From Planctomycetaceae bacterium (GTDB lineage Bacteria; Planctomycetota; Planctomycetia; Pirellulales; Pirellulaceae): 64,000 nucleotides of DNA. The notes below the pieces were generated by a model, which saw nothing but the letters and a program-made list of their open reading frames with translations, was not told where the DNA came from and ran no database searches. The stretch lies in assembly GCA_002862205.1 (NCBI GenBank), contig PKCN01000020.1:1-64000 (forward strand). Reading direction: 5' to 3'. Both the position numbers and the translations under genes were made by a program. This document shows, piece by piece, positions 41,599 to 53,425 of this stretch (positions are counted from its first letter, which is position 1; each line of letters begins with the position of its first letter).

Positions 41599-44283
41599 TT
41601 GGCTGAAGCAGAAGACACAGAAGACACAGAAGACGAGGTGAAGAGCAAACCGGTCGGGCGTCGTGATTTGGTCACGATAGGCTTGTTGTTAGGTGCTGCG
41701 CTGGCGTCGGTTGGTGGCTTTGCGATTCTTTTTTCGATGTGGTGGACGACGGACGTTACTGAGCCTGAATCGTTATTGCGTTTGGCATCACGCGAGTTCG
41801 TGGACGGTCGCCCGATCGTGGCAGGAAAGCTTGCTGAACTTGCCGAGTTGGAGTCAGCTGATTCCCCCATCGAACCTCGTGAAATGCCGCTGGACACGTC
41901 AGACGAGGATCTTGACGCACAGCGTTTGCGTGAAGCTGCCGATGATCAGGTGCGACTTGAGCGATTGGATCTGATTCGTTTGCGAGATTTTCTCATCGGT
42001 GTGGGAAAGGCATACGAGGCTAAACGCGCCCCAATGGATCGGGAAAAACGGCAGCTGTACTTTGCTGCTGTGCCCTACTTGGAACTGACTCGAGACCATG
42101 GTTTTCCTCAGGGGCGGCGCACGCAGGGGTATCAAACACTCGGCGAGGCCTACTTTCATTTGGGACGTTTTGATGATGCGGTCATCAACTTGAACCAGGC
42201 GATTGAAAATGAGCCGCTGCTCAGACGCCAACTCTTGCCGATGATTGCCGAATCACAATACCGTGCGAGAAAAGATCAAAAAGATGATGCGTTAGCCAGC
42301 GTTGATGAGTATCTGGCTGATCCAGCGTTGACCGCTGCGGCAAGAAAGGTTGTTGGAATTTTGCGTATCAAGATCTTGATGGAACTGGGGCTTTGGGATG
42401 AGTTGAAAGACGCCTTAGAGGAGCATCAGAATCGACAAGAAGAAGGTGATGTATTGAAGAATCGTGCAATCTTTCTGCGCACGGTTTCGAATATCAAAAA
42501 GATCACTTCTGAGTCCAGTTTGCAGACCAAGAATGATGAGAATGATGAGGATGATCGCAAGAGAATAAAAGTGGACCTGGCAAGTGCGTTGCAGGTTCTT
42601 AATGCATTGAACCAGAAGTCAGAAAAATCGAGTGAGATAGGGTTGTGGATTGGGCGTGTCAAATTGATGCAAGGAGATGTCACGGGAGCCACCAATGCGT
42701 TTCATAGTGTGATGCGCAAAGACCAAGCATCAAGTGCAGCACGGATTGGTGCTGCTGAGATCCTCGGTGGGCTTCAGGAAATTGAGTTGTTGGCCCAGAG
42801 CACGGATGGTGAGCAGGCAGTACAGGCCATTCGCTATCTGATGAATGAAATTGGCAGCCGTGAAGGATTTGACCACGAGTTGGTTTCCTTTCGCGAATTT
42901 AACACAAGAATGAGTCAGGCTCTCAATCAGTTGCGGCAGGCAGGCGAGTACCAGGCTGCCATTGATGCAGCACGCAGCTTGCCACCTGTGTTCGATCTCG
43001 GTGAAGCGTTGGTTCAGGAGGGCAAAGGTTATCAGGCTTGGGCTGAACAGACATTGCAGGACGGGGCCGATTTTAATGGCCAGGTGTCCGATACAATTGC
43101 GGAGGTAGTGCGACAGCGATACCGTGCTGCTGGAGATGCGTTTGCGGAGGCGGCACAGCTGCGATTCAACAGCGAAGAATATATCCCGACTCTCTGGTCA
43201 GCCATTGATGCCTATCAAAATGGCAACCATTTTTCCCAAAGCATACGGCTTCTCGAACCCTATCTTCAGCAGGAGGACAAAAGCCGTCAGTCACAGGGTT
43301 TGATCGCTTATGGAAAAGCGCTCCTGGCAGTTGGCAAGCCTGCGGAAGCCATCAATGCATTTGAGCAGTGCATTTACGAATACCAAAAAGATCCTCTGCG
43401 ATATTCTGCCCGCTACTACGGTGCTTTGGCCTATGCGGAGTCAGGCGATATCGATACTGCGCGTCAGCTATTGCGACAAAATGTAGATAGTGAGGGCCGA
43501 GATCTGGATGATCAAACTCCTGATCTTAAACCTGAGAGCGCAGAGTGGCAGGACTCATTGTTTGCTCTTGGATCGCTGCTTTATGAACTGGGTTACCGAA
43601 ATTATCTCGAGGCAGAACAGGCCGATGCGGTAAAGCGGTTGGAGTTGTTGCGTGAGAATCAGCCCATCCTGGAGTCTGCGATTCGTCGATTGGAAGTCGC
43701 TGACCAGCGCTGGTGGGATGAACATGATGATGCCCGGTCAAAGCAGAACGCCTACTTTACCGCGCGGACGCATGTGATGGCTTCTGAATTGCCTCGCATG
43801 GAAGCCACATTGCCTGATACTCTGAGTGCGGCACAAAGAGCATCACTCAGGGAAGCGGAGGTGCATTTACAAAAGGCTTTGGTGGGCTTTCGGCGATTGG
43901 GACAGTATCTTGCAACGCTTGACGAAGAAAAAGATTTATCCAAAACAGATCAAGCAATGCAGCGAAACTGCATGATATTTGAGGCTGATGTTTTGAAGAG
44001 TATGAATAAGTATCGGGAGGCTGCTGATGTCTATCGAACCATCGAATCTTTGTACATCGGGCAACCCGCTGCGATCGAAGCTATCGTTGGTCGAGCGACT
44101 TGCGCGAGGCAATTAGGGAATGATCGTGAATTCGAAATTTTGCTCCGTCAAGCAAGTGAAATGTTGAAACAAATCCCTGTCGAGTCAGATCCCGAATTTG
44201 CGGAAACGACACGGTACGACCGAGAGGGATGGCAGCAGTTGTTGGACTGGATTATCCAGGATTTTGATAAGCAGAAGGCGTGA
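41599..44283 (+). CDS. large TPR membrane protein heading the flagellar cluster
   Basis: 894 residues. It starts with TTG at 41599, with GGGAGG nine bases before it; the opening residues are Glu/Asp-rich through three near-identical 9-bp units (41611-41637). One membrane segment lies near 22-45 (LVTIGLLLGAALASVGGFAILFSMWW). The rest is nearly all helical with TPR-like pairs such as GYQTLGEAYFHLGRFDDAVINLNQAIENEP, LIAYGKALLAVGKPAEAINAFEQCI and AYAESGDIDTARQLLRQ. It is likely an assembly scaffold outside or at the membrane. Its distance of 20 bp from the FlgN-like gene ties it to the flagellar operon, but its flagellar role is inferred from position only. Confidence 0.7.
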   Translation: MAEAEDTEDTEDEVKSKPVGRRDLVTIGLLLGAALASVGGFAILFSMWWTTDVTEPESLLRLASREFVDGRPIVAGKLAELAELESADSPIEPREMPLDTSDEDLDAQRLREAADDQVRLERLDLIRLRDFLIGVGKAYEAKRAPMDREKRQLYFAAVPYLELTRDHGFPQGRRTQGYQTLGEAYFHLGRFDDAVINLNQAIENEPLLRRQLLPMIAESQYRARKDQKDDALASVDEYLADPALTAAARKVVGILRIKILMELGLWDELKDALEEHQNRQEEGDVLKNRAIFLRTVSNIKKITSESSLQTKNDENDEDDRKRIKVDLASALQVLNALNQKSEKSSEIGLWIGRVKLMQGDVTGATNAFHSVMRKDQASSAARIGAAEILGGLQEIELLAQSTDGEQAVQAIRYLMNEIGSREGFDHELVSFREFNTRMSQALNQLRQAGEYQAAIDAARSLPPVFDLGEALVQEGKGYQAWAEQTLQDGADFNGQVSDTIAEVVRQRYRAAGDAFAEAAQLRFNSEEYIPTLWSAIDAYQNGNHFSQSIRLLEPYLQQEDKSRQSQGLIAYGKALLAVGKPAEAINAFEQCIYEYQKDPLRYSARYYGALAYAESGDIDTARQLLRQNVDSEGRDLDDQTPDLKPESAEWQDSLFALGSLLYELGYRNYLEAEQADAVKRLELLRENQPILESAIRRLEVADQRWWDEHDDARSKQNAYFTARTHVMASELPRMEATLPDTLSAAQRASLREAEVHLQKALVGFRRLGQYLATLDEEKDLSKTDQAMQRNCMIFEADVLKSMNKYREAADVYRTIESLYIGQPAAIEAIVGRATCARQLGNDREFEILLRQASEMLKQIPVESDPEFAETTRYDREGWQQLLDWIIQDFDKQKA

Positions 44284-44302: not shown

Positions 44303-44752
44303 ATGAACGGAAAACAAGTTGCTGCCTTAATTGGACAAAGGTGGGAGATTCTCAATCGCCTGCTCGGTATCAGCCGTTTGCAAATGGCGGCCATCGAGCA
44401 GGGACAGATGAGTGACTTGATGCGTCTGCTATCGGAAAAACAGCAGCCGTTGAATCAGCTCATTGAACTCGGTGATCAAATTGGGGCAGCCAATGAAGAT
44501 CGTTCACGAGAGCGGCATTGGGATAGCGATGATGTTCGAGAGCGGTGCAGGGAGCAGCAGGCTGAGTGTGAGAAAATGAATCTCGAACTTTTGGCCATTG
44601 AAGCAGCATGCGAGTCCAAATTAAGCCATAACCGTGACGAACTACGCCAACGACTGGAACGTGTTGACTCCGGATGGCAAGCCGTCTCGGGGTATGCTGA
44701 TCACTCAGTCAAAAGCACCACCGGTGGATCCCTCGATCTGTCCAGTGACTGA
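44303..44752 (+). CDS. FlgN-like flagellar export chaperone candidate
   Basis: 149 residues, almost all helical. The start MNGKQVAALIGQRWEILNRLLGISRLQMAAIEQGQMSDLMRLLSEKQQPLNQLIELGDQI has the long N-terminal helix and QQP-type turn of FlgN-type chaperones, which bind late export substrates such as FlgK and FlgL. The identification is by helical pattern and by operon place, not by a firm motif. GCGAGGA stands nine bases before the ATG. Its last codons (DLSSD, stop) are read from the first copies of the 16-bp tandem repeat, so the C terminus seems to have been replaced or extended by the repeat. Confidence 0.55.
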   Translation: MNGKQVAALIGQRWEILNRLLGISRLQMAAIEQGQMSDLMRLLSEKQQPLNQLIELGDQIGAANEDRSRERHWDSDDVRERCREQQAECEKMNLELLAIEAACESKLSHNRDELRQRLERVDSGWQAVSGYADHSVKSTTGGSLDLSSD

Positions 44753-44812
44753 TCTGTCCAGTGACTGATCTGTCCAGAGACTGATCTGTCCAGAGACTGA
44801 TCTGTCCGGGAA
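44733..44812. repeat. 16-bp tandem repeat, five copies, overlapping a stop codon
   Basis: Units at 44733, 44749, 44765, 44781 and 44797, each near CTGATCTGTCCAGTGA; the third and fourth read AGAGA at the end and the fifth diverges into CCGGGAA. Each unit can form a small ACTG/CAGT hairpin. The array begins inside the last codons of the FlgN-like gene and covers its stop. Confidence 0.9.
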
Positions 44813-45063
44813 TTGGCTGCTTGGACTCAATCCTGTGCACGCCATGTTTGGTAGGGTTCCTGCCCTGTCTGTTAGAGGTGCCCCCAAGTGTTCCGGACAG
44901 AGCGTGTTCCGGACAGAGCAACTGCTCTGGGTGCGTGCGAAAGGGCAATGCTAGCAGACGCGATTTTACTGAATCCGTCTTGCATCGCGCAACAGCTTGC
45001 TGCTATGCACTTTGGTTGTGTCTTTCATTTTGACCGCTGCACCGAACACATCGGGAGCGTACC
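44753..45063. other. intergenic region with repeats in both orientations
   Basis: About 310 bp interrupting the flagellar cluster. It holds most of the 16-bp array, and at 44888-44903 and 44904-44919 two exact copies of GTGTTCCGGACAGAGC. The core CTGTCCGG of the fifth array unit is inverted as CCGGACAG in these copies, so the two blocks can fold on each other over about 75 bases. No gene seen. Confidence 0.7.
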
Positions 45064-45486
45064 ATGCCCAATCATTGGATCGATCCAAGCCAGTGCCAAT
45101 CTTTAGCCGTTCTTGTGGAATCGGTGACGGCACCTCTTTTAATTGAACATCAGGCGGCGATTTGCCTTGAACTGGACATTGATACTTCATTTGAAGTGCC
45201 AGCTGATTCAGAGCGGACGGTTGACCTCCTGCAGGCGTTGGTCAACCAGTCACTCTCAGAAATGCCCGAGGGAGGTGATTTGACGATCACTGCGTGTGAG
45301 ACGGCACAGGGACTCGAGTTGGAACTTGCTGACACGGGCTGTGACATCGAAAATCGTCTGCAACGTATTCCCATTGCGGCAGCCGCTCTGGGAGTAGAAT
45401 TGGTCTGGCAGAACTGTCCTCAGGGTGGGGCAGCAGTCACAATGACATTTCATCGACAAAGCGGTACTGGTCGCATTGCAGCATGA
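45064..45486 (+). CDS. orphan GHKL (histidine-kinase-type) ATPase-domain protein in the flagellar cluster
   Basis: 140 residues. The segment LLQALVNQSLSEMPEGGDLTITACE (N-box with Asn61) and LELELADTGCDIENR (G1 box with Asp90 and Gly92) match the ATP-binding domain of histidine kinases, and the C-terminal strand GGAAVTMTFH closes the fold. There is no phospho-acceptor His domain, no sensor and no membrane segment, and the G2 box is not clear. It could be an anti-sigma-like kinase, a partner for an unlinked protein, or a non-catalytic binder. GGGAGCG lies before the ATG. Position 29 bp before flgB ties it to flagellar assembly. This makes it the best candidate for an undescribed part in the window. 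Confidence 0.65.
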   Translation: MPNHWIDPSQCQSLAVLVESVTAPLLIEHQAAICLELDIDTSFEVPADSERTVDLLQALVNQSLSEMPEGGDLTITACETAQGLELELADTGCDIENRLQRIPIAAAALGVELVWQNCPQGGAAVTMTFHRQSGTGRIAA

Positions 45487-45514
45487 ACAACGGCTTATTG
45501 GGGAGACCCATTTG

Positions 45515-45913
45515 ATGTTTGGTATTTTCAACACAACAACGATTCCAGCGTTGGAGCAGACGTTAAGTTTTGCCCAGAAACGTCATGAACTACTTGCTGG
45601 AAATCTGGCGAACCTTGATACCCCAGGCTACCGGGCGAAAGATCTCGATGTTGGCGATTTTCAAAATGCACTTGCAGAGTCAATTGACACGCATCAGAAG
45701 GCGATCGATTCGGGGCAACCACTTACAAGGGATGACATTCGATCGGGTCCGCGAGACGCGATGGAGCAGGTAGTTTATCACGATCAGAGCGATGTATCAC
45801 TGGAACAACAGGTTTCAGAAGTGGCAAAGAACGAACACATGCATGCTTTGGCAATCACAACGATGCGAAGTCAGTTTGCTTTATTAAGAGCCGCAATCAC
45901 TGAACGTGCGTAG
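45515..45913 (+). CDS. flgB: flagellar basal-body rod protein FlgB
   Basis: 132 residues. Proximal rod subunit exported by the flagellar secretion system. The N-terminal motif LLAGNLANLDTPGYRAKDLDVGDFQ and the C-terminal helix EVAKNEHMHALAITTMRSQFALLRAAI are typical of FlgB. GGGGAG stands nine bases before the ATG. It precedes flgC by 67 bp, the normal order flgB-flgC-fliE. Confidence 0.93.
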   Translation: MFGIFNTTTIPALEQTLSFAQKRHELLAGNLANLDTPGYRAKDLDVGDFQNALAESIDTHQKAIDSGQPLTRDDIRSGPRDAMEQVVYHDQSDVSLEQQVSEVAKNEHMHALAITTMRSQFALLRAAITERA

Positions 45914-45980: not shown

Positions 45981-46400
45981 ATGTTACGAGCACTTGATAT
46001 AAGTACATCTGCCCTTGTGGCAGAACGAACTCGATTGAATGCGGTGGCAGGGAACATTGCGAATATCTCGACGCTCAAAAATGAAAAGGGTGAGGCAGAG
46101 CCTTATCGAGCACGAGAAGTCGTGTTTCAGGTAGATGATGAAATTTCCACGCAAGGTGCTTCGGGTGTGAAGGTGGAAGAGATTCGGTCGAGTGATGCCG
46201 AGCCGCTGTACCGTTACCAGCCCCAACATCCATTGGCAATCAAAGATGGCAAATGGAAGGGATATGTCGCCTACCCGAATATTGACCTTACGACACAGAT
46301 GGTAGATGCCCTCGAATCGACACGAGCCTACGAGGCAAATGTTGGTGTGATGGAGATTACAAAAAATCTGAGTCGCGAAACGTTGACAATCTTGGCTTAG
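45981..46400 (+). CDS. flgC: flagellar basal-body rod protein FlgC
   Basis: 139 residues. Rod subunit next to FlgB. The start MLRALDISTSALVAERTRLNAVAGNIANIST and the C-terminal YVAYPNIDLTTQMVDALESTRAYEANVGVMEITKNLSRETLTIL match FlgC closely. Follows flgB on the same message. Confidence 0.94.
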   Translation: MLRALDISTSALVAERTRLNAVAGNIANISTLKNEKGEAEPYRAREVVFQVDDEISTQGASGVKVEEIRSSDAEPLYRYQPQHPLAIKDGKWKGYVAYPNIDLTTQMVDALESTRAYEANVGVMEITKNLSRETLTILA

Positions 46401-46523: not shown

Positions 46524-46841
46524 ATGCGACCTATTAACGGAATCCAACCGCCACTTCGTCTCGAGCCACTCAACGGTGGTGCAGCTGCAAAATCGGGAAA
46601 GGTGGATTTTCAATCCGGGATCGATGAATTCGCCAAAGTGCTCACCAATGAAGTCAATGATGTCAATTCGATGCAGATTGATGCCAATGATATGGTTCAT
46701 TCACTGTTGACTGGCGGTGATGTTAATGAGGCTGAGGTGCTGACTGCGGTGCAGAAAGCGGATCTTGCGTTTCGCATGCTATTGCAGGTACGTAATAAGC
46801 TGGTTGAGGCGTATCGGGAAGTCCAGCAAATTCAAATCTGA
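46524..46841 (+). CDS. fliE: flagellar hook-basal body protein FliE
   Basis: 105 residues. It joins the MS ring to the rod. The C-terminal helix ADLAFRMLLQVRNKLVEAYREVQQIQI is the family hallmark, and the middle VNDVNSMQIDANDMVHSLLTGGDVNEAEVLTAVQK fits. It follows flgC and precedes fliF, the usual order. Confidence 0.93.
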   Translation: MRPINGIQPPLRLEPLNGGAAAKSGKVDFQSGIDEFAKVLTNEVNDVNSMQIDANDMVHSLLTGGDVNEAEVLTAVQKADLAFRMLLQVRNKLVEAYREVQQIQI

Positions 46842-46921: not shown

Positions 46922-48553
46922 ATGAATTTTCTGAGACAATCAACTGATCAGGCGCGGCAGGTGTTTTTATCAATGCCGATGCAGTCGCGCGTTATAGCGG
47001 CGATGTTGGTCGCAGTGATCGCGATTGGTCTGGCATTTCTGGTTCGTGGTTCTGATACAAAATCCACGGAGTACCTGTTTGGTGGTCGCTCAATGGGCGA
47101 GCAGGAGATGGATTCCATCGAGGTCGCCTTGAGTGCAGCGGGTTTGAATGAATGGGAACGGGAAGGACGTCGGATCAAGGTCCCCAAGGAGTCCAAGTCT
47201 GCTTATTTGGCTGCGTTGGGAGATGCGACCAGTTTGCCGATCGCCTTGAGGACAGAGGTCGATCAGGCCATCAAGTCGAGCAGCCCTTTTGACTCTTCTG
47301 ATTTGAGGCACGCGCGTGAGATGCATGCCAAGGAGAAGGATCTCGGGAATAAAATCTCCGCCTTTCCAGATGTCCGCTGGGCCAGTGTCGAATACGATCG
47401 TGGGGAACGTATTGGGTTGTCACGCGTCGTAGCACAATCCGCAAGCGTGATGGTGCAACCAGAAGGCGGTCGTGCCCTGTCACGTCAACGGATCATTGCA
47501 ATTCAGGAATTGATACGTGGTTCCTACGCTAGCATGGCGACCGATGATGTTGTTGTTATTGATACCAATAGTACGACAGTCAGCGTGGGTGTTGAAGACG
47601 AAGATCCGCTGCTCACGAAGCAACGTGAGGCTGAAAAGCACATTGAGTACAAACTGCGGAAACTACTGGTCGAATATCCAGCCCAGATTGCAGTTTTTGC
47701 CGAGATTGATCCGACGATGGACTCTGAATTGGCATCGTTGAAATTCGATCCAGAGCCGACCAATCTGAGGAACAGCTCCAAGAAAATTGAAACCACACGG
47801 AATCAACAAGTCGCAAGTGGTGTCCCCGGTGCGGATCCCAATGCAATTGGTAATCGAGCCCAAAGCATTGGCAAAGAAATGGAAGTCCTGAACACGACTG
47901 AGGATGAACGGGACACCAGCGGAGTGGCGGGGCAACAGTTTGAGAGTTCAAAGTTAGCGGATTTGCAGGTCAAGACGATTCGGGTTTCGATCATGTTGCC
48001 AACCAGCTACTACGAACAACTCAACCAAAAGAATGTTCAAACAAGTGATCCGACAAAAAAGAAAGAGGACATTGTGCTTGATGATGCGACCTTGGAGAGT
48101 TTGCGAGTCAAGACAGAGAAAAAGATTCAGGAAATCGTCAGTCCTCTATTACCTCAGGTTGCAGCCGGAGCTGATCCTGTTTCGCTGGTGACGGTGCGCG
48201 ACGCTCCTAATTTGCAGGTTGCTGCGACAACAGAAGAGCTGGCAACCAGCCAGACTTTGACGTGGTTGGCTGACTCCTGGCAAACATTGGCGCTGATATT
48301 TTTGGGACTCGTTGCCCTGCTCGTCGCTCGTTCAGCGGCGAAATCCACGGGGAATGCCACACCACCGGATTTTCAAGAGGGTTTCGGCCTGGAAATGCCA
48401 CGGCCGCCCCAGTCCGAGCAGGAACTGGAGGAAGAGTCAGAGCGGATGACAATCACCGGTGGATCTCTCAAAGACGAATTACTGCATCTGGTTGAGGACA
48501 ATCCTGAGGTTGCAGCGAATGTGATTCGCGGGTGGGTTGGGGACGCCGCCTGA
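46922..48553 (+). CDS. fliF: flagellar MS-ring protein FliF
   Basis: 543 residues. MS-ring protein in the inner membrane. Two membrane segments at about 22-41 (VIAAMLVAVIAIGLAFLV) and 456-475 (TLALIFLGLVALLVARSA) flank the periplasmic ring-building domains, with the expected KEKDLGNKISAFPDVRWASVEYD. The C-terminal cytosolic tail SLKDELLHLVEDNPEVAANVIRGWVGDAA is the FliG-binding helix. Size and layout are normal. Confidence 0.95.
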   Translation: MNFLRQSTDQARQVFLSMPMQSRVIAAMLVAVIAIGLAFLVRGSDTKSTEYLFGGRSMGEQEMDSIEVALSAAGLNEWEREGRRIKVPKESKSAYLAALGDATSLPIALRTEVDQAIKSSSPFDSSDLRHAREMHAKEKDLGNKISAFPDVRWASVEYDRGERIGLSRVVAQSASVMVQPEGGRALSRQRIIAIQELIRGSYASMATDDVVVIDTNSTTVSVGVEDEDPLLTKQREAEKHIEYKLRKLLVEYPAQIAVFAEIDPTMDSELASLKFDPEPTNLRNSSKKIETTRNQQVASGVPGADPNAIGNRAQSIGKEMEVLNTTEDERDTSGVAGQQFESSKLADLQVKTIRVSIMLPTSYYEQLNQKNVQTSDPTKKKEDIVLDDATLESLRVKTEKKIQEIVSPLLPQVAAGADPVSLVTVRDAPNLQVAATTEELATSQTLTWLADSWQTLALIFLGLVALLVARSAAKSTGNATPPDFQEGFGLEMPRPPQSEQELEEESERMTITGGSLKDELLHLVEDNPEVAANVIRGWVGDAA

Positions 48554-48590: not shown

Positions 48591-48793
48591 TCCCTCCTGA
48601 ATCTGGTTGATCAGGGTGTAAGAAATGCTCGGGATTTTCCTTCGTTGCATGCAGAAAACTGCAGTGAACTGATTTCCTCTTCCCATGTAAGCTCAAGTTC
48701 GACTACAAGAGTGACACTGAGGGCTGATGGCAAAGGATTGCTGGCCTTTGGGGAACGATTTAGATTTTGCATGGCACGAGGGAGCGGCCCCAA

Positions 48794-50128
48794 ATGGCAA
48801 ACGGATGGGACTCAGGATTAGAGCGCGAAGCGATGTTGCGTCGCGTTGCAATCGTACTGAGTAACCTGCCTGCGCCGGTTGCTGCTAATCTGCTTGGCGA
48901 GATCGATGCTGACACCAAGGTGGCTGTGCGACGCACAATGAGGTCACTGACAGATGTCGATCCACTCGAGCAGAAACGCGCTCTCCATGCTTTTAAAGTC
49001 TCCGTTCAGAAACCTGAGGCTTCACCTGATAAGTTTCAGGCATCCAGCGATCGCAAGCCAGCTTCGCCAGCTGCAGAGCAGACGAAAGCACCAGGCAATG
49101 CTGGTTCGCGAGCCGTAAGGTCAAGTCCTGGCAACTCCGGGACAACTACTGTCGCCGATGCAGCCACTCAAGTGACGGATGATGAACATCCGTTGGCGTT
49201 TCTTGAACAGGTTGATGAGCAGGTCCTGGTTGACTTGTTGAAGATGGAGCGTCCACAGATCGTTGCCACTGTATTGGCATCGATCAGACCGGAACATGCA
49301 GCTCGTGTGCTTGCGAAGCATGGCAGCGGGTTGGAAGACATGCTCGGGCGAATAGGAAAGATCGAAGCAATTCCCTCGGCTTCGCTTGCAGAGCTGGCAG
49401 ATCATTTTCGAAAATCGCTCGGCAAGCGGATCGTTGGTGCCAGTGATACATTGGGACGCCGAGCCTTGGATGCCATTCTGGCTGCGATGCCTGGGGAGCA
49501 AGATCAACACACTACTCTGCACCCTGAAAACAATCTGCACCCTGAAAACAATCGGCAGGCTGCTGCTAGAGCTCATTCATCCGAAGACAAAACACTTGAC
49601 GAGTACCCCCAACGGCAGTCTGGTTTTCCATCTGCGGTAGCCGCAGCGGAAAATTTGAGTTCCAGACTGCGCATTGCTGAAGGAACTTCGCCACCGCACA
49701 GAGGCAATGCATCGCCCGACGCTGAGTTCGGGCATCGACACGGTAATGAAGCATCCCTGGTTTCTCGACATGCTGCGACGGATGCCGTTGTTTCGACACC
49801 GCCTGAATCTGCTAATCCAGTTGAGAATCCAGTACGGTTCCCGTCCACAGACTCGATTCATCAGCACCTGCTGGAGCTGTCACCGCAGCATCTTTGTGAA
49901 ACGCTTGGCAAGGTCCAAGCCAGAGTCGCAATGTTAGCCCTTTGTGGCCTTCCCAATCCGGTCACCTCGGCGGTGCTGGCGCTGCTTCCCAAGGCAGAAT
50001 CACGGAAGGTGCGTGAAGCGATGAATTCGCTTGGTGCATTGCAATTGCGGGAGATTGATGAGGCGAAAGAAACTGTTGCCCACGCGTCGCTTGAAGTGGT
50101 CGACGCACCGATTCCCAATGCTGCCTGA
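48794..50128 (+). CDS. fliG: flagellar motor switch protein FliG, divergent
   Basis: 444 residues, longer than the usual 330-350. An N-terminal domain (about 1-70) binds FliF. A low-complexity linker (70-130) leads to a FliG middle domain (about 130-215) with HPLAFLEQVDEQVLVDLLKMERPQIVATVLASIRPEHAARVLA, the ERPQ in place of the classic EHPQ. A second, 130-residue disordered linker with a duplicated LHPENN follows, and then a C-terminal FliG-like domain (about 355-430; LCETLGKVQARVAMLALCGLPNPVTSAVLALLPKAESRKVREAMNSLGALQLREIDEAK). The charged torque-generating residues are not recognisable. Start from GAGGGAG upstream. Order fliF-fliG-fliH is standard. Confidence 0.8.
   Translation: MANGWDSGLEREAMLRRVAIVLSNLPAPVAANLLGEIDADTKVAVRRTMRSLTDVDPLEQKRALHAFKVSVQKPEASPDKFQASSDRKPASPAAEQTKAPGNAGSRAVRSSPGNSGTTTVADAATQVTDDEHPLAFLEQVDEQVLVDLLKMERPQIVATVLASIRPEHAARVLAKHGSGLEDMLGRIGKIEAIPSASLAELADHFRKSLGKRIVGASDTLGRRALDAILAAMPGEQDQHTTLHPENNLHPENNRQAAARAHSSEDKTLDEYPQRQSGFPSAVAAAENLSSRLRIAEGTSPPHRGNASPDAEFGHRHGNEASLVSRHAATDAVVSTPPESANPVENPVRFPSTDSIHQHLLELSPQHLCETLGKVQARVAMLALCGLPNPVTSAVLALLPKAESRKVREAMNSLGALQLREIDEAKETVAHASLEVVDAPIPNAA
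49517..49552 (+). repeat. 18-bp in-frame tandem duplication in fliG
   Basis: CTGCACCCTGAAAACAAT occurs twice in succession within fliG and encodes LHPENN twice. It keeps the frame and falls in the disordered linker between the middle and C-terminal domains. Confidence 0.9.
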
Positions 50129-50143
50129 ATAGAGGTGTGATTC

Positions 50144-50830
50144 ATGGCCACCGTCTTGAAATCAGGCGATCGCGACAAGCAGCAAACGGCTGCTCAAAAG
50201 ACATCAGCCATCGCGGGATTCAATCTGAGCGATCTTGCTGATGAGGGACGTGCGCGTCTGGATCAATGTCGCTTGCAGGTGCAGGAAATGCTGGCGAAAG
50301 CCGAACGCGATGTGCAAGCCATTCACAAAGCTGCTCATGAACGCGGATATCAGCAAGGCCTCGAGCAGGCCGCTACCGATTCAGAGAAGAAGCTTCAGGT
50401 TAAAGCTGAGCAGCAAGCAAAATCCAGTACGCAGGTCATGCAACAGGCAGTCAAGCAGATCCATGACACTTATTCCCAATGGATGACGCACTACGGAGAC
50501 GTACTCACGCAAACCTCATTGGCTGCTGCTGAAAAAATTGTTCAACGGAAACTCGAGGTTGAGCCGGAATTGATGGTCACGTGGGCAAAAGAAGCATTGC
50601 ACAGCACACGGACAGCTTCGAGTTTGACGCTCGTGTTGCATCCAGAAACGCTTGCTCGAGCTGGAACAGCATTTGAAACGATGGTTTTGGCACCCGGATT
50701 GCCCGAGAAGACCCACATCGAAACAGACGAAACCCTGGCTCGAGATGAAGTAGTTGTTCGTCAGAATGGCGGTGAAATTCAAGCCGGCCTGACTGCGCAA
50801 CTACAACGACTCAAGGAGTTGTTGCAGTGA
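50144..50830 (+). CDS. fliH: flagellar export regulator FliH
   Basis: 228 residues. FliH controls the FliI ATPase. A long helical N half with QEMLAKAERDVQAIHKAAHERGYQQGLEQA is followed by the FliH/V-ATPase E-type domain (YGDVLTQTSLAAAEKIVQRKLEVEPELM, LVLHPETL, GEIQAGLTAQLQRLKELL). The stop overlaps the fliI start by one base. Confidence 0.88.
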   Translation: MATVLKSGDRDKQQTAAQKTSAIAGFNLSDLADEGRARLDQCRLQVQEMLAKAERDVQAIHKAAHERGYQQGLEQAATDSEKKLQVKAEQQAKSSTQVMQQAVKQIHDTYSQWMTHYGDVLTQTSLAAAEKIVQRKLEVEPELMVTWAKEALHSTRTASSLTLVLHPETLARAGTAFETMVLAPGLPEKTHIETDETLARDEVVVRQNGGEIQAGLTAQLQRLKELLQ

Positions 50831-52272
50831 TGGACAAAGCAACGAAAGTATTTGAGTTTTCAACTCCAAGCTTGCCTGATCCCAAGGTGACCAAGGCATT
50901 GATTGAACAAGCTGTTGCACACCAGGTACGAGGGCGCGTCTCAGCTGTTGCGGGTGAGTCTGTCGAAATCGAAGGCATGACAGCACCGATTGGGGCAATC
51001 TGCGAACTGCAGTCACAGGATGGAGCGATTTCGCGTTCACGTGTGATTGGATTCCGTGGTGTGCGTCCCATTCTTGCTCCATTGGAACGACTCAATGCAC
51101 TCTCAGCTGGTGACTCGGTTCGACTGGTTGATACCACATTGAAGTTGCGGGTAGGTCCTGATCTTTGTGGTCGTGTCATTGATGCTTTTGGACAGCCCGT
51201 CGATGGTAAACCTCTGCCAAATGATTTGATGATCGTTGATGCAGAACGTGAACCGCCTGAATCTCTGGCACGTCCCTCAATCGATACCCCCTTGCAAACT
51301 GGAATTCGAGCAATTGACACGATGTTGACCTGCGGCCAAGGTCAGCGATTGGGTATCTTCGCTGGCTCCGGAGTCGGAAAGAGCACTTTGTTGGGAATGC
51401 TGGCACGCGGTTCCAACGCCGACCGGATCGTGATTGGGATGGTAGGTGAACGTGGCAGAGAGGTACAGGAATTTCTCGATCGAGCTCTCGGTGAAAGTGG
51501 CTTTGCGAGAAGTGTTGTTGTGGTGGCCACCAGTGACCGACCAGCGGCACAACGCGTGTCCGCAGCATGGACGGCTACCGCCGTCGCCGAAGCGTTCCGT
51601 GATCAGGGCGAGAACGTGCTGTTGTTACTTGATTCTGTGACACGATTCGCAATGGCACAACGCGAACTGGGCTTGGCTGCTGGTGAACCACCCACCACAC
51701 GCGGTTATCCGCCCAGTGTTTTTAATCTATTGCCAAGGCTCGTCGAACGGGCTGGACGGACCGAACGAGGCTCTATCACCGCCTTTTATACGGTGCTGGT
51801 CGAGGGAGATGATCACAATGAACCCATCGCCGATGCGCTTCGAGGATTACTCGACGGGCACCTCGTGCTCAGTCGAGATCTGGCGGCCAGTGCACATTGG
51901 CCCCCGATCGATGTTCTCCATAGTCTGAGTCGTTTGCAGCCGCATCTCGTCTCTCGCGAGGCTTTGCAGGCCACCGCTATCGCTCGCCAGCACCTCAGTG
52001 AGTACCAACGGCATGCGGATCTGATCTCCATCGGCGCTTACCGCCATGGTAGTGATCCCAAAGTTGATGCGGCGATTGCCATGCGAGATCCGCTCAATCT
52101 GTTCTTGCGGCAAGAGGCGACCCAAATCACGAAACTCGAAGATTCCAACCGGATGCTGGCACAGATTGTCACCACACAACCCGTAAATCCTCAGGCAAAT
52201 GTCGACGTTTCAGCGCAAAGTGCTCCCGCAGATAGTATGGTTGAGGAGAGTCCGGGGGTCGTGACGAGCTGA
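50830..52272 (+). CDS. fliI: flagellar export ATPase FliI
   Basis: 480 residues. ATPase that drives protein export, related to the F1 beta subunit. Walker A is GSGVGKST (179-186), followed by MVGERGREVQEFLDRALGESGFARSVVVVATSD and LLLLDSVTRFAMAQRELGLAAGEPPTTRGYPPSVF, and YRHGSDPKVDAAI near the C terminus. All key catalytic segments are intact. Start ATG 50830 inside TGATG with fliH; a GTG just before is possible. Confidence 0.96.
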   Translation: MDKATKVFEFSTPSLPDPKVTKALIEQAVAHQVRGRVSAVAGESVEIEGMTAPIGAICELQSQDGAISRSRVIGFRGVRPILAPLERLNALSAGDSVRLVDTTLKLRVGPDLCGRVIDAFGQPVDGKPLPNDLMIVDAEREPPESLARPSIDTPLQTGIRAIDTMLTCGQGQRLGIFAGSGVGKSTLLGMLARGSNADRIVIGMVGERGREVQEFLDRALGESGFARSVVVVATSDRPAAQRVSAAWTATAVAEAFRDQGENVLLLLDSVTRFAMAQRELGLAAGEPPTTRGYPPSVFNLLPRLVERAGRTERGSITAFYTVLVEGDDHNEPIADALRGLLDGHLVLSRDLAASAHWPPIDVLHSLSRLQPHLVSREALQATAIARQHLSEYQRHADLISIGAYRHGSDPKVDAAIAMRDPLNLFLRQEATQITKLEDSNRMLAQIVTTQPVNPQANVDVSAQSAPADSMVEESPGVVTS

Positions 52273-52315
52273 TTTTTTCATGCGTTTCACCGATTCATGA
52301 CCGTGAGGATCTATC

Positions 52316-52762
52316 TTGCCTGCCGAATTTCGATTTAAAGCGCTGCTCGATCTGCGACGTCAGCAACGCGATGAGGCGGGGGCGGCTTTGGGACAGGCCA
52401 ATGAGGCCATCGACAAAGTGAATGCGCAAATTGACCAAATCAAGACTGAACGTGTTGCTCTACGCAATACCGATGATGTCAGGCGGCAAGGCGATGTTTC
52501 CGTCGATGCGTTGTTGGCACACGGACGTTATGACTTGCAGTTGCAGGCAGATGTCGGGGCCTTGCAGGCCACCATTGCTGAGTTGACCGCCGAGATGGAA
52601 AAACGGCGAGCCACCTTGGTCGAGGCAGAAGCTGAACTCAAACGCTTTGAAAAATTGAAAGAAAACGATGAAGCCGAATTTCGGGCTTTGCAATCCAAAC
52701 GAGACAACGCAGAGGCCGACGAAGTGTCAACACGCCGGTATACCCTCCAGCGACAACGGTAA
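52316..52762 (+). CDS. fliJ: flagellar export protein FliJ
   Basis: 148 residues of a single antiparallel coiled coil, typical of the FliJ general chaperone (FRFKALLDLRRQQRDEAGAALGQANEAIDKVNAQIDQIKTER). The start is TTG at 52316, after GAGGA by seven bases. It follows fliI and precedes the MotE-like gene by six bases. Confidence 0.85.
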   Translation: MPAEFRFKALLDLRRQQRDEAGAALGQANEAIDKVNAQIDQIKTERVALRNTDDVRRQGDVSVDALLAHGRYDLQLQADVGALQATIAELTAEMEKRRATLVEAEAELKRFEKLKENDEAEFRALQSKRDNAEADEVSTRRYTLQRQR

Positions 52763-52768
52763 CAGATC

Positions 52769-53425
52769 ATGATTTCAAATCTTCTTCGAGGACTGACCGC
52801 CTTTTGCGTGGCAACCGTTCTGACCCAAGTTATTCTGCTGAGTTACTTCCTGATTCAGGGAACACTCAATCGTAATTCTGCGATCCAGTTGGTTGCATTG
52901 GTCAACGGGATCGATGTCTCTGGAAATCGTTTGCAGGAATTCCTGCGAAAAAGTAAAGACGTCGAACAGCCAAGTTTTGACGAAATTCTTGACCAGCGAA
53001 AAATGAAGAGCTTGGACATGGACATTCGACTGAGAAGTCAGCAAGAGTTTCGAGACGAGCTTAGCATCATGCTGGCGGAGTTGCGGGATGATCAGGATCG
53101 CTTTAGCGATCGCTTGCTAGCATTTCGAACTGAGCTCAAAGAACTCAACGAAGAAGCTCAGGAAAATGGACTCCAGGAAGTGCAACGCACTCTTCAATCA
53201 CTGGATCCAGAGCAGGCCAAAGAGCAATTGCTGATAATGTATGACGATAAAAGAATTGATGACGTTGTCACAATCCTTCAAGCCATGTCGACAGATGCAC
53301 GAAAAGACATATTGGCAGAGTTCACAACGCCGGCAGATATAGACATCCTTGCGGATGTACTGCGGCGTATCAGTGAAGGCATGCCAGTTTCATCATTGAT
53401 CAAAGAAACGAACGATAAACTGTAG
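52769..53425 (+). CDS. MotE-like membrane protein with MgtE-N-type C-terminal domain
   Basis: 218 residues. One membrane helix (about 8-28), then a long coiled coil (about 70-130: ELSIMLAELRDDQDRFSDRLLAFRTELKELNEEA) and a C-terminal helical domain AKEQLLIMYDDKRIDDVVTILQAMSTDARKDILAEFTTPADIDILADVLRRI, the kind called MgtE intracellular N domain. This plan matches MotE, which chaperones the MotC stator in some bacteria. It lies between fliJ and fliK. No motA or motB is in the window. Confidence 0.7.
   Translation: MISNLLRGLTAFCVATVLTQVILLSYFLIQGTLNRNSAIQLVALVNGIDVSGNRLQEFLRKSKDVEQPSFDEILDQRKMKSLDMDIRLRSQQEFRDELSIMLAELRDDQDRFSDRLLAFRTELKELNEEAQENGLQEVQRTLQSLDPEQAKEQLLIMYDDKRIDDVVTILQAMSTDARKDILAEFTTPADIDILADVLRRISEGMPVSSLIKETNDKL

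Follow-up and report, generated by a model that had tools for sequence, protein, structure and literature searches.

The window, that is, the whole 64,000-nt stretch of DNA that was analysed, belongs to the genus that holds Rubripirellula obstinata (Pirellulaceae, Pirellulales) in the genome set. According to Pfam, it contains the gene run flgN-orphan-flgB-flgC-fliE-fliF-fliG-fliH-fliI-fliJ-(unknown)-fliK-flgD-flgE-like. The orphan gene (45064..45486, + strand) encodes a protein of 140 aa, which is a residual kinase ATP domain without the DHp domain, the N-box Asn and the ATP lid. Its upstream neighbour on the same strand is flgN (44306..44752; Pfam FlgN 3.2e-8). The downstream neighbour flgB (45512..45913, +; Pfam Flg_bb_rod 2.2e-4, TIGR01396 9.2e-14) begins after a gap of 25 nt, the gene calls of all loci being longest ORFs with uncertain start codons and gap lengths. 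Further along the + strand are flgC (45981..46400; Pfam Flg_bbr_C and Flg_bb_rod), fliE (46524..46841; Pfam FliE 7.6e-23), the MS-ring gene fliF (46922..48553; Pfam YscJ_FliF 3.7e-15), a divergent fliG (48767..50128; Pfam FliG_M 1.3e-15, FliG_C 9.3e-9, FliG_N 1.8e-8), and fliH, fliI and fliJ (50144..52762; Pfam). The initial annotation had placed a gene just before flgB in the flagellar operon, and this position was confirmed. Clear orthologs in 60 of 199 genomes and a dN/dS of 0.05–0.10 show that the gene is real, and the orthologs ruled out a chance ORF. The nearest genus-named records for the protein were from Rhodopirellula MAGs (86–88% identity). A literature search, which covered open-licence papers only, yielded no report of the gene or, for planctomycetes, of flagellar bases that lack a filament.

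Several other features were observed in the region. Tandem repeats of 16 bp are located at 44735-44807 (4.6 copies, where flgN ends) and at 44888-44919 (2.0 copies, in the gap before the orphan gene). A TPR protein is encoded upstream of flgN (41599-44283), and flgN likewise has a TPR protein as its neighbour both in orphan loci (L057, L059, L061-L063 and L073) and in kinase loci (L074-L076 and L078). The region between fliJ and fliK (52769-53425) had no Pfam match at 0.01; homologs of its protein adjoin fliJ in five loci (L053, L055, L056, L057 and L061), and it presumably resembles a MotE/MgtE_N-type protein.

Fold and conserved residues of the orphan domain

Profile searches, which had been proposed as a check of the GHKL fold, gave a divided answer. 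NCBIfam kinase profiles matched the protein with E values down to 4.6e-5, whereas Pfam HATPase_c reached 16.3 bits (E 0.014), below its gathering cut-off of 26.4 bits. The best E value in a phmmer search of the PDB was 0.033, and as judged from sequence only, the relation to histidine-kinase ATP domains was weak. The AlphaFold model, which was built on 45 orthologs, had a pLDDT of 85.8 and a pTM of 0.80. It matched the catalytic domain of PhoQ (3cgz) with a Foldseek value of 8e-7 and a VIA Z of 16.3 over 122 residues (rmsd 2.4), and DivL (4q20) was also among the structural matches (Z 14.8). Because the model was good and matched kinase catalytic domains, the earlier call of an orphan histidine-kinase-like ATPase domain was right; as modelled, the protein is an alpha/beta sandwich of the HATPase_c/GHKL superfamily.

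The DHp/phospho-acceptor His domain is missing, as judged from the length of the protein and its alignment with kinases, and the same evidence agreed with the initial statement that it has no phospho-acceptor, sensor or membrane part. The Pfam search gave no HisKA, HATPase_c_2 or HPTransfase match. In the model, the first long helix is preceded by only 13 residues, which together with the missing HPTransfase match does not agree with a histidine phosphotransferase of the ChpT/Spo0B type, with its helical hairpin and phospho-acceptor His before a degenerate ATPase domain.

The N- and G1-box signatures noticed earlier were only partly retained: the G1-box Asp is present in 45/45 orthologs, but of the N box only the frame is left, with Asn in 0/45. 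Residues 62–78 (45247..45297, +) comprise, by alignment and column counts, the end of the N-box helix and the strand PEGGDLTITAC, with Gln62 at the position of the kinase N-box Asn; the orthologs have Gln (40), Gly (2), Glu (1), Asp (1) or Ser (1) at this position. The subfamily signature E85-x-E87-x-x-D90 (45316..45333, +), in which D90 is the G1-box Asp, is invariant in all 45. A second subfamily signature is found at residues 115–126 (WQNCPQGGAAVT, 45406..45441, +), where P119, Q120, G121, G122 and T126 are likewise invariant. Apart from the start Met, the only other invariant residues were L14, G71 and R98, while position 118 was Cys in 44 and position 124 was Ala in 40 of the 45 sequences. 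The spacing between D90 and P119 was 29 in every ortholog, compared with 48–49 in 18 of 19 comparison sequences from the loci; the remaining one, which belongs to the reduced forms, had a spacing of 45. On account of this difference, the ATP lid with the F and G2 boxes, about 20 residues, was considered missing. Because the DHp domain, the N-box Asn and the ATP lid have been lost, the protein should not act as an ordinary ATP-dependent kinase.

In a 22-row alignment that included six divergent short forms, the form of G001 and four full kinases, the invariant positions were G71, E85, E87, C118, P119, G121, G122 and A124. ExExxD was found in 20/20 locus kinases or reduced kinases and CPxGGxA in 19/20, with RPRGG in L124. 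Neither motif is present in two other, paralogous kinases of the window genome. The alignments show that the remaining GHKL sandwich carries two conserved motifs which were already present in the full kinase.

Kinase and regulator at the same slot in relatives

The initial annotation had stated that model flagellar systems have no subunit of this kind at the position, which overlooks the complete kinase-regulator pair that stands there in relatives. In L074, L075, L076 and L078, the slot reads flgN - full kinase - NtrC-type regulator - flgB, with kinases of 282–313 aa followed by a regulator frame of 475–497 aa; the L074 kinase (L074:6356-7246), for example, matched Pfam HisKA (2.9e-7) and HATPase_c (1.8e-26). 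A kinase-length match to the orphan was located 1,453–2,099 nt from flgB in at least 32 Pirellulaceae genomes, a set compiled, within 139 genomes without the strict orphan, where both positions were seen on one contig; for G157 and G165, the genome's best match to the orphan was a different one from that near flgB. Of the loci L108-L126, 19 in all, 12 likewise show the arrangement flgN - kinase - regulator (families f2, f5 and f10; nine are f5), and the pair therefore spans several families of the order. In the other seven loci (L108, L109, L110, L118, L119, L122 and L125), fliF comes next, and the 3.4 kb read contained no recognised regulator. By sequence and tree, the nearest relatives of the orphan are the sensor kinases of the same locus, and these comparisons show it to be the surviving catalytic-type (CA) domain of the cytoplasmic flagellar histidine kinase found at the same slot in relatives, where its sigma-54-dependent response regulator comes after it.

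Intermediate forms were also observed. G411 has a kinase-like protein of 302 aa with an AHE motif before fliF, without a neighbouring regulator and without a Pfam HisKA match at E 0.01. In G001 and G355, a DHp-less domain that still has an N-box precedes fliF (HATPase_c 4.7e-23 in G001). Living relatives thus present a series from a signalling enzyme to a non-catalytic part, which runs from the full kinase with its regulator, through the kinase-like form of G411 and the DHp-less ATP domain of G001 and G355, to the lidless pseudo-domain.

The regulator was followed in 47 genomes, which were chosen to cover the classes and not at random (32 with the strict orphan, 8 with other reduced forms and 7 with the full kinase). 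The same set was used for FlhA, FliF, flagellin, FliM/N and FliG_C, and 23 of its members for FliP and Flg_bbr_C. An ortholog of the L074 regulator (62–100% identity) was present in 7/47 genomes, the query's own included, and all seven had the full kinase. Among the candidates scored, at most 34 per genome, it was absent from 40/40 reduced-form genomes, where the best match had at most 45% identity, and this speaks against the simple partnership with a response regulator that had been envisaged earlier. In the window genome, the best match lay on another contig (C51) with 41% identity and 325 bits, compared with at least 570 bits in full-kinase genomes. A sigma-54 promoter before flgB was considered as a possible vestige of the lost regulator. 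With the promoter consensus as the scan pattern, a strict match was observed in the gap between regulator and flgB in 2/4 kinase loci (L074 and L078) and in 0/3 window stretches, and the sample was too small for this to serve as evidence.

Distribution, selection and genomes without rod, hook or filament

Loss of the gene from the clusters of most relatives, which the initial annotation would have taken as a refutation, was not seen within the genera that have the gene. Strict orthologs (E ≤ 9.4e-18) were found in 60/199 genomes of the family searched, but in 60/61 listed genomes of the 11 genera that have it, a count outside which fall 17 genomes without a match, for nine of which the genus was not read. 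The exception, G126, is 82% complete. No listed match contained an internal stop. The dN/dS of the orphan was 0.05–0.10 across nine measurable pairs; it was 0.05–0.09 between the window and six relatives, the seventh pair being saturated, and 0.05–0.10 for three pairs within g37, a genus with no flgB in its native cluster. The values were low alike in the flagellated genus g1 and in g37, and by this measure the orphan is retained under strong selection, for a function.

In a tree of 60 ATP domains, the 25 strict orphans included (those of L098, G045 and G091 were not in the tree) formed one clade with support of 95/99. Eleven divergent short forms grouped with this clade weakly (84/81) and on long branches. 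From the tree, the strict clade looks like the result of a single reduction event. Among the divergent short forms repeated reduction is likely, because they are weakly grouped and long-branched and their family also contains full kinases.

It was found that nine orphan-bearing genomes (G116, G167, G038, G045, G088, G113, G127, G156 and G091) were rodless, with no FlgB, flagellin or Flg_bbr_C (rod/hook) match; the FlgB search had matches in 144 genomes, and these nine were not among them. FliF, FlhA and FliP were present in 9/9, FliM/N in eight (not G127) and a FliG_C match in eight (not G113, which has a FliF-FliG fusion with borderline FliG_C). FliE is still present in G045. No flgN was recognised in any of the stretches read from these nine genomes. 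The orphan lies directly before fliF in the rodless genomes, with fliE between the two in G045, so that by synteny fliF is the gene that still adjoins it where flgB has been lost; fliG was not recognised in the stretch read of G138, G045 or G091. Across 39 loci without the kinase-regulator pair (31 with the strict orphan and 8 with other reduced forms), the flagellar gene recognised next was fliF in 24, flgB in 14 and fliE in one. In six g37 loci (L042, L045, L046, L048, L049 and L098), the orphan stop was separated from the longest-ORF start of fliF by 2 nt. Because nine rodless genomes keep the orphan together with FliF, FlhA and FliP, a role in the rod, hook or filament is unlikely as judged from gene content. 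What remains is that the orphan would be needed by, or would at least travel with, the FliF/FlhA base.

A native orphan locus without flgB was also seen in 13 g37 genomes and in G055, in stretches of 11–15 kb for 12 of them and of only 3.4 kb for G191 and G197. A second FliF and FlhA with flagellins, that is, another flagellar system, was present in 12 of these 14 genomes, and the orphan was still there. In 11/13 g37 genomes, G055 and G168, the genome holds both a native flagellar base system with divergent FliF/FlhA and one with a high-scoring FliF and flagellin; the latter was perhaps acquired. Because genera g1, g39 and g46 each hold flagellated and rodless members, to which g37/g55 is added, there look to have been at least four separate rod losses, provided that these genera are natural groups and that no lineage regained its flagella; the losses in G045 and G091 were counted by genus membership.

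The conservation of FliF differed from that of the orphan. Compared with the window, G167, G116, G055, G156, G138 and G148 had 59–62% identity in the orphan but only 27–46% in FliF, whereas in the rodless genus g39 the contrast was small (48–54% and 39–43%, respectively). The identity of the FliF cytoplasmic tail to that of the window was 24–40% in eight FliF proteins of rodless loci and 42–73% in five flagellated orphan genomes. Residues 251–350 of FliF had 4–16% identity in G055, G156, G138 and G148, while the other four of the eight aligned rodless-locus sequences still had 35–39%, which does not support a loss of the rod-side region in all rodless loci.

FliG was also variable. In G038 (L060:4634-7114, 827 aa) and G113 (L072:7508-10219, 904 aa), FliF and FliG form one open frame, a natural fusion, that carries YscJ_FliF and FliG_M, with FliG_C borderline in G113, and both genomes are without a flagellin match. 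All 11 flagellated strict-orphan genomes searched for FliG_C encode two FliG proteins, of which one is divergent and the other, encoded elsewhere, is canonical (G000:C33:37443-37757, FliG_C 2.8e-41 in G000). The divergent FliG lies in the fliF operon where this was read (48767-50128 in the window) but elsewhere in G072, G130 and G141. The nine rodless genomes have weak FliG_C matches only (1.8e-12 or weaker), two in G156 and none in G113.

Proposed role and comparison with known systems

An ATP-binding regulator, e.g. an anti-sigma kinase of the SpoIIAB/RsbW type as the initial annotation had suggested, would agree with the GHKL fold and with the G1 Asp kept in 45/45 orthologs. It is nevertheless very improbable, with the N-box Asn replaced and the lid, F and G2 boxes included, missing in 45/45, with the sensor kinases of the same locus as closest relatives and with no HATPase_c_2 match; to judge by the aligned residues, the lost Asn and lid led us to reject the anti-sigma and split-kinase readings and argue against any other ATP-dependent role. 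Loss of the catalytic parts, and the strong divergence and long branches of some lineages, could also be expected of a functionless kinase relic pending deletion. That the gene is such a relic is hardly credible in view of its dN/dS of 0.05–0.10, its retention without internal stop in 60/61 listed genomes and its survival of what seem to be no fewer than four separate rod losses, and for the strict clade the dN/dS refuted it. A location between flgN and flgB, 25 nt before the latter in the window, might suggest an export chaperone or accessory to their products (rod or hook-junction substrates); this is improbable since the nine genomes without FlgB, flagellin and Flg_bbr_C matches keep the orphan.

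The remnant might instead bind another kinase or regulator and tune the expression of flagellar (or other) genes, as a non-catalytic regulator like DivL or RetS; RetS is an example of a non-catalytic regulator of another signalling protein. Possible partners exist, as 47/47 surveyed genomes hold several NtrC-type paralogs (7 to 26 matches, with at most 34 candidates scored per genome), and DivL (4q20, Z 14.8) is itself a structural match. The orphan is, however, without the DHp domain, where the docking surface for a regulator is usually located. It adjoins fliF, flgB or fliE and never a regulator in the 39 reduced loci, and it is kept where the usual targets, the rod, hook and flagellin genes, were not found. 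Although GHKL pseudokinases of this sort are known, the catalytic domains of DivL being described as repurposed into a DivK~P sensor (PMC4211667), we regard such a role for the orphan as unlikely.

On balance, our analysis slightly favours a pseudokinase domain with an inherited binding surface for FliF, FliG or the export base, where it would serve without phosphotransfer. An ancestral Pirellulales kinase would have docked on the flagellar base through a surface on its ATP domain, for which the binding of assembled FliF-FliG by the analogous Campylobacter kinase FlgS is a precedent (PMC7064773). The lineage leading to the clade of the window lost its regulator, the dimerisation domain with the His, some 20 residues of the ATP lid and the N-box Asn, and the docking surface would have been kept once signalling was dropped. 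The ExExxD and CPxGG motifs may form this surface, through which the protein would contact the MS-ring/export base from the cytoplasm (FliF, together with FlhA and the FliG of the operon). The remnant would act stoichiometrically at the base, either as a subunit that helps to assemble or stabilise it or by gating export, and would take no part in phosphotransfer. In this model, the orphan still adjoins fliF after flagellum loss because its product docks on the MS-ring/export base. An operon position beside fliF can reflect inherited order only. Against the model also count the lower conservation of the FliF cytoplasmic tail, the likeliest contact, in rodless loci, the small contrast between orphan and FliF in g39, the undetected FliF/FliG binding of the flagellar kinases FlrB and FleS, and the low FlgS score of the L074 kinase.

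We further suggest, tentatively and as a possibility we would not ourselves bet on, that a filament-less export or membrane machine in Pirellulaceae outlives the rod, hook and filament, with the orphan as one of its constant cytoplasmic subunits. Its parts would be FliF, the divergent FliG, FlhA and FliP, usually FliM/N, and often FliH and FliI. The findings point to a filament-less flagellar base retained in several planctomycete genera; if the machine is real, a signalling domain became a machine part. The docking model also makes a claim on how flagellar kinases sense assembly, namely that the part kept after the loss of signalling should touch the flagellar base.

It is already known that a kinase fold can be reused after catalysis has been lost (DivL) and that base proteins can be kept without flagella (Chlamydia). 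In Chlamydia, a FliF-FlhA-FliI set is retained without a flagellum and interacts with type III secretion proteins, which the organism also has; in contrast to the orphan genomes, no orphan kinase domain is mentioned in the abstract of that report (PMC2830194). A bacteria-wide survey noted rotor proteins without filament, possibly with another function, and its main text contains no word starting with 'Planctomyc' (PMC12199754). Flagellar export proteins are reported to be reused in non-flagellated Lysobacter (PMC7277350).

FlgS of Campylobacter and Helicobacter is likewise a flagellum-associated cytoplasmic kinase, but it is catalytically active with FlgR as its regulator, whereas the orphan is not a kinase. 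Campylobacter FlgS detects and physically binds FliF and FliG once these are assembled round the export core; FlrB and FleS need the same base parts, although their direct binding to FliF/FliG was undetected, and the contact surfaces of FlgS are stated not to be known (PMC7064773). The full kinase of L074 scored 80.8 bits against NCBIfam FlgS (cut-off 600) and is not FlgS by that cut-off. DivL of Caulobacter is similar to the orphan in that the kinase fold is kept, catalysis is lost and the catalytic part is reused for binding (PMC4211667), although for the orphan the reuse for binding is an assumption of the model; DivL differs in keeping its DHp, lid and PAS domains, in binding DivK~P, and in organelle and partners. 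The nearest full kinase is the AtoS/ZraS-like one of the Pirellulales flgN-flgB locus (L074:6356-7246), whose N-terminus looks coiled by eye. It shares the slot, ExExxD and CPxGGxA with the orphan, and differs in having the HisKA domain, the whole set of boxes (N, G1, F and G2) and an NtrC-type regulator next to it, where the orphan has the sandwich only.
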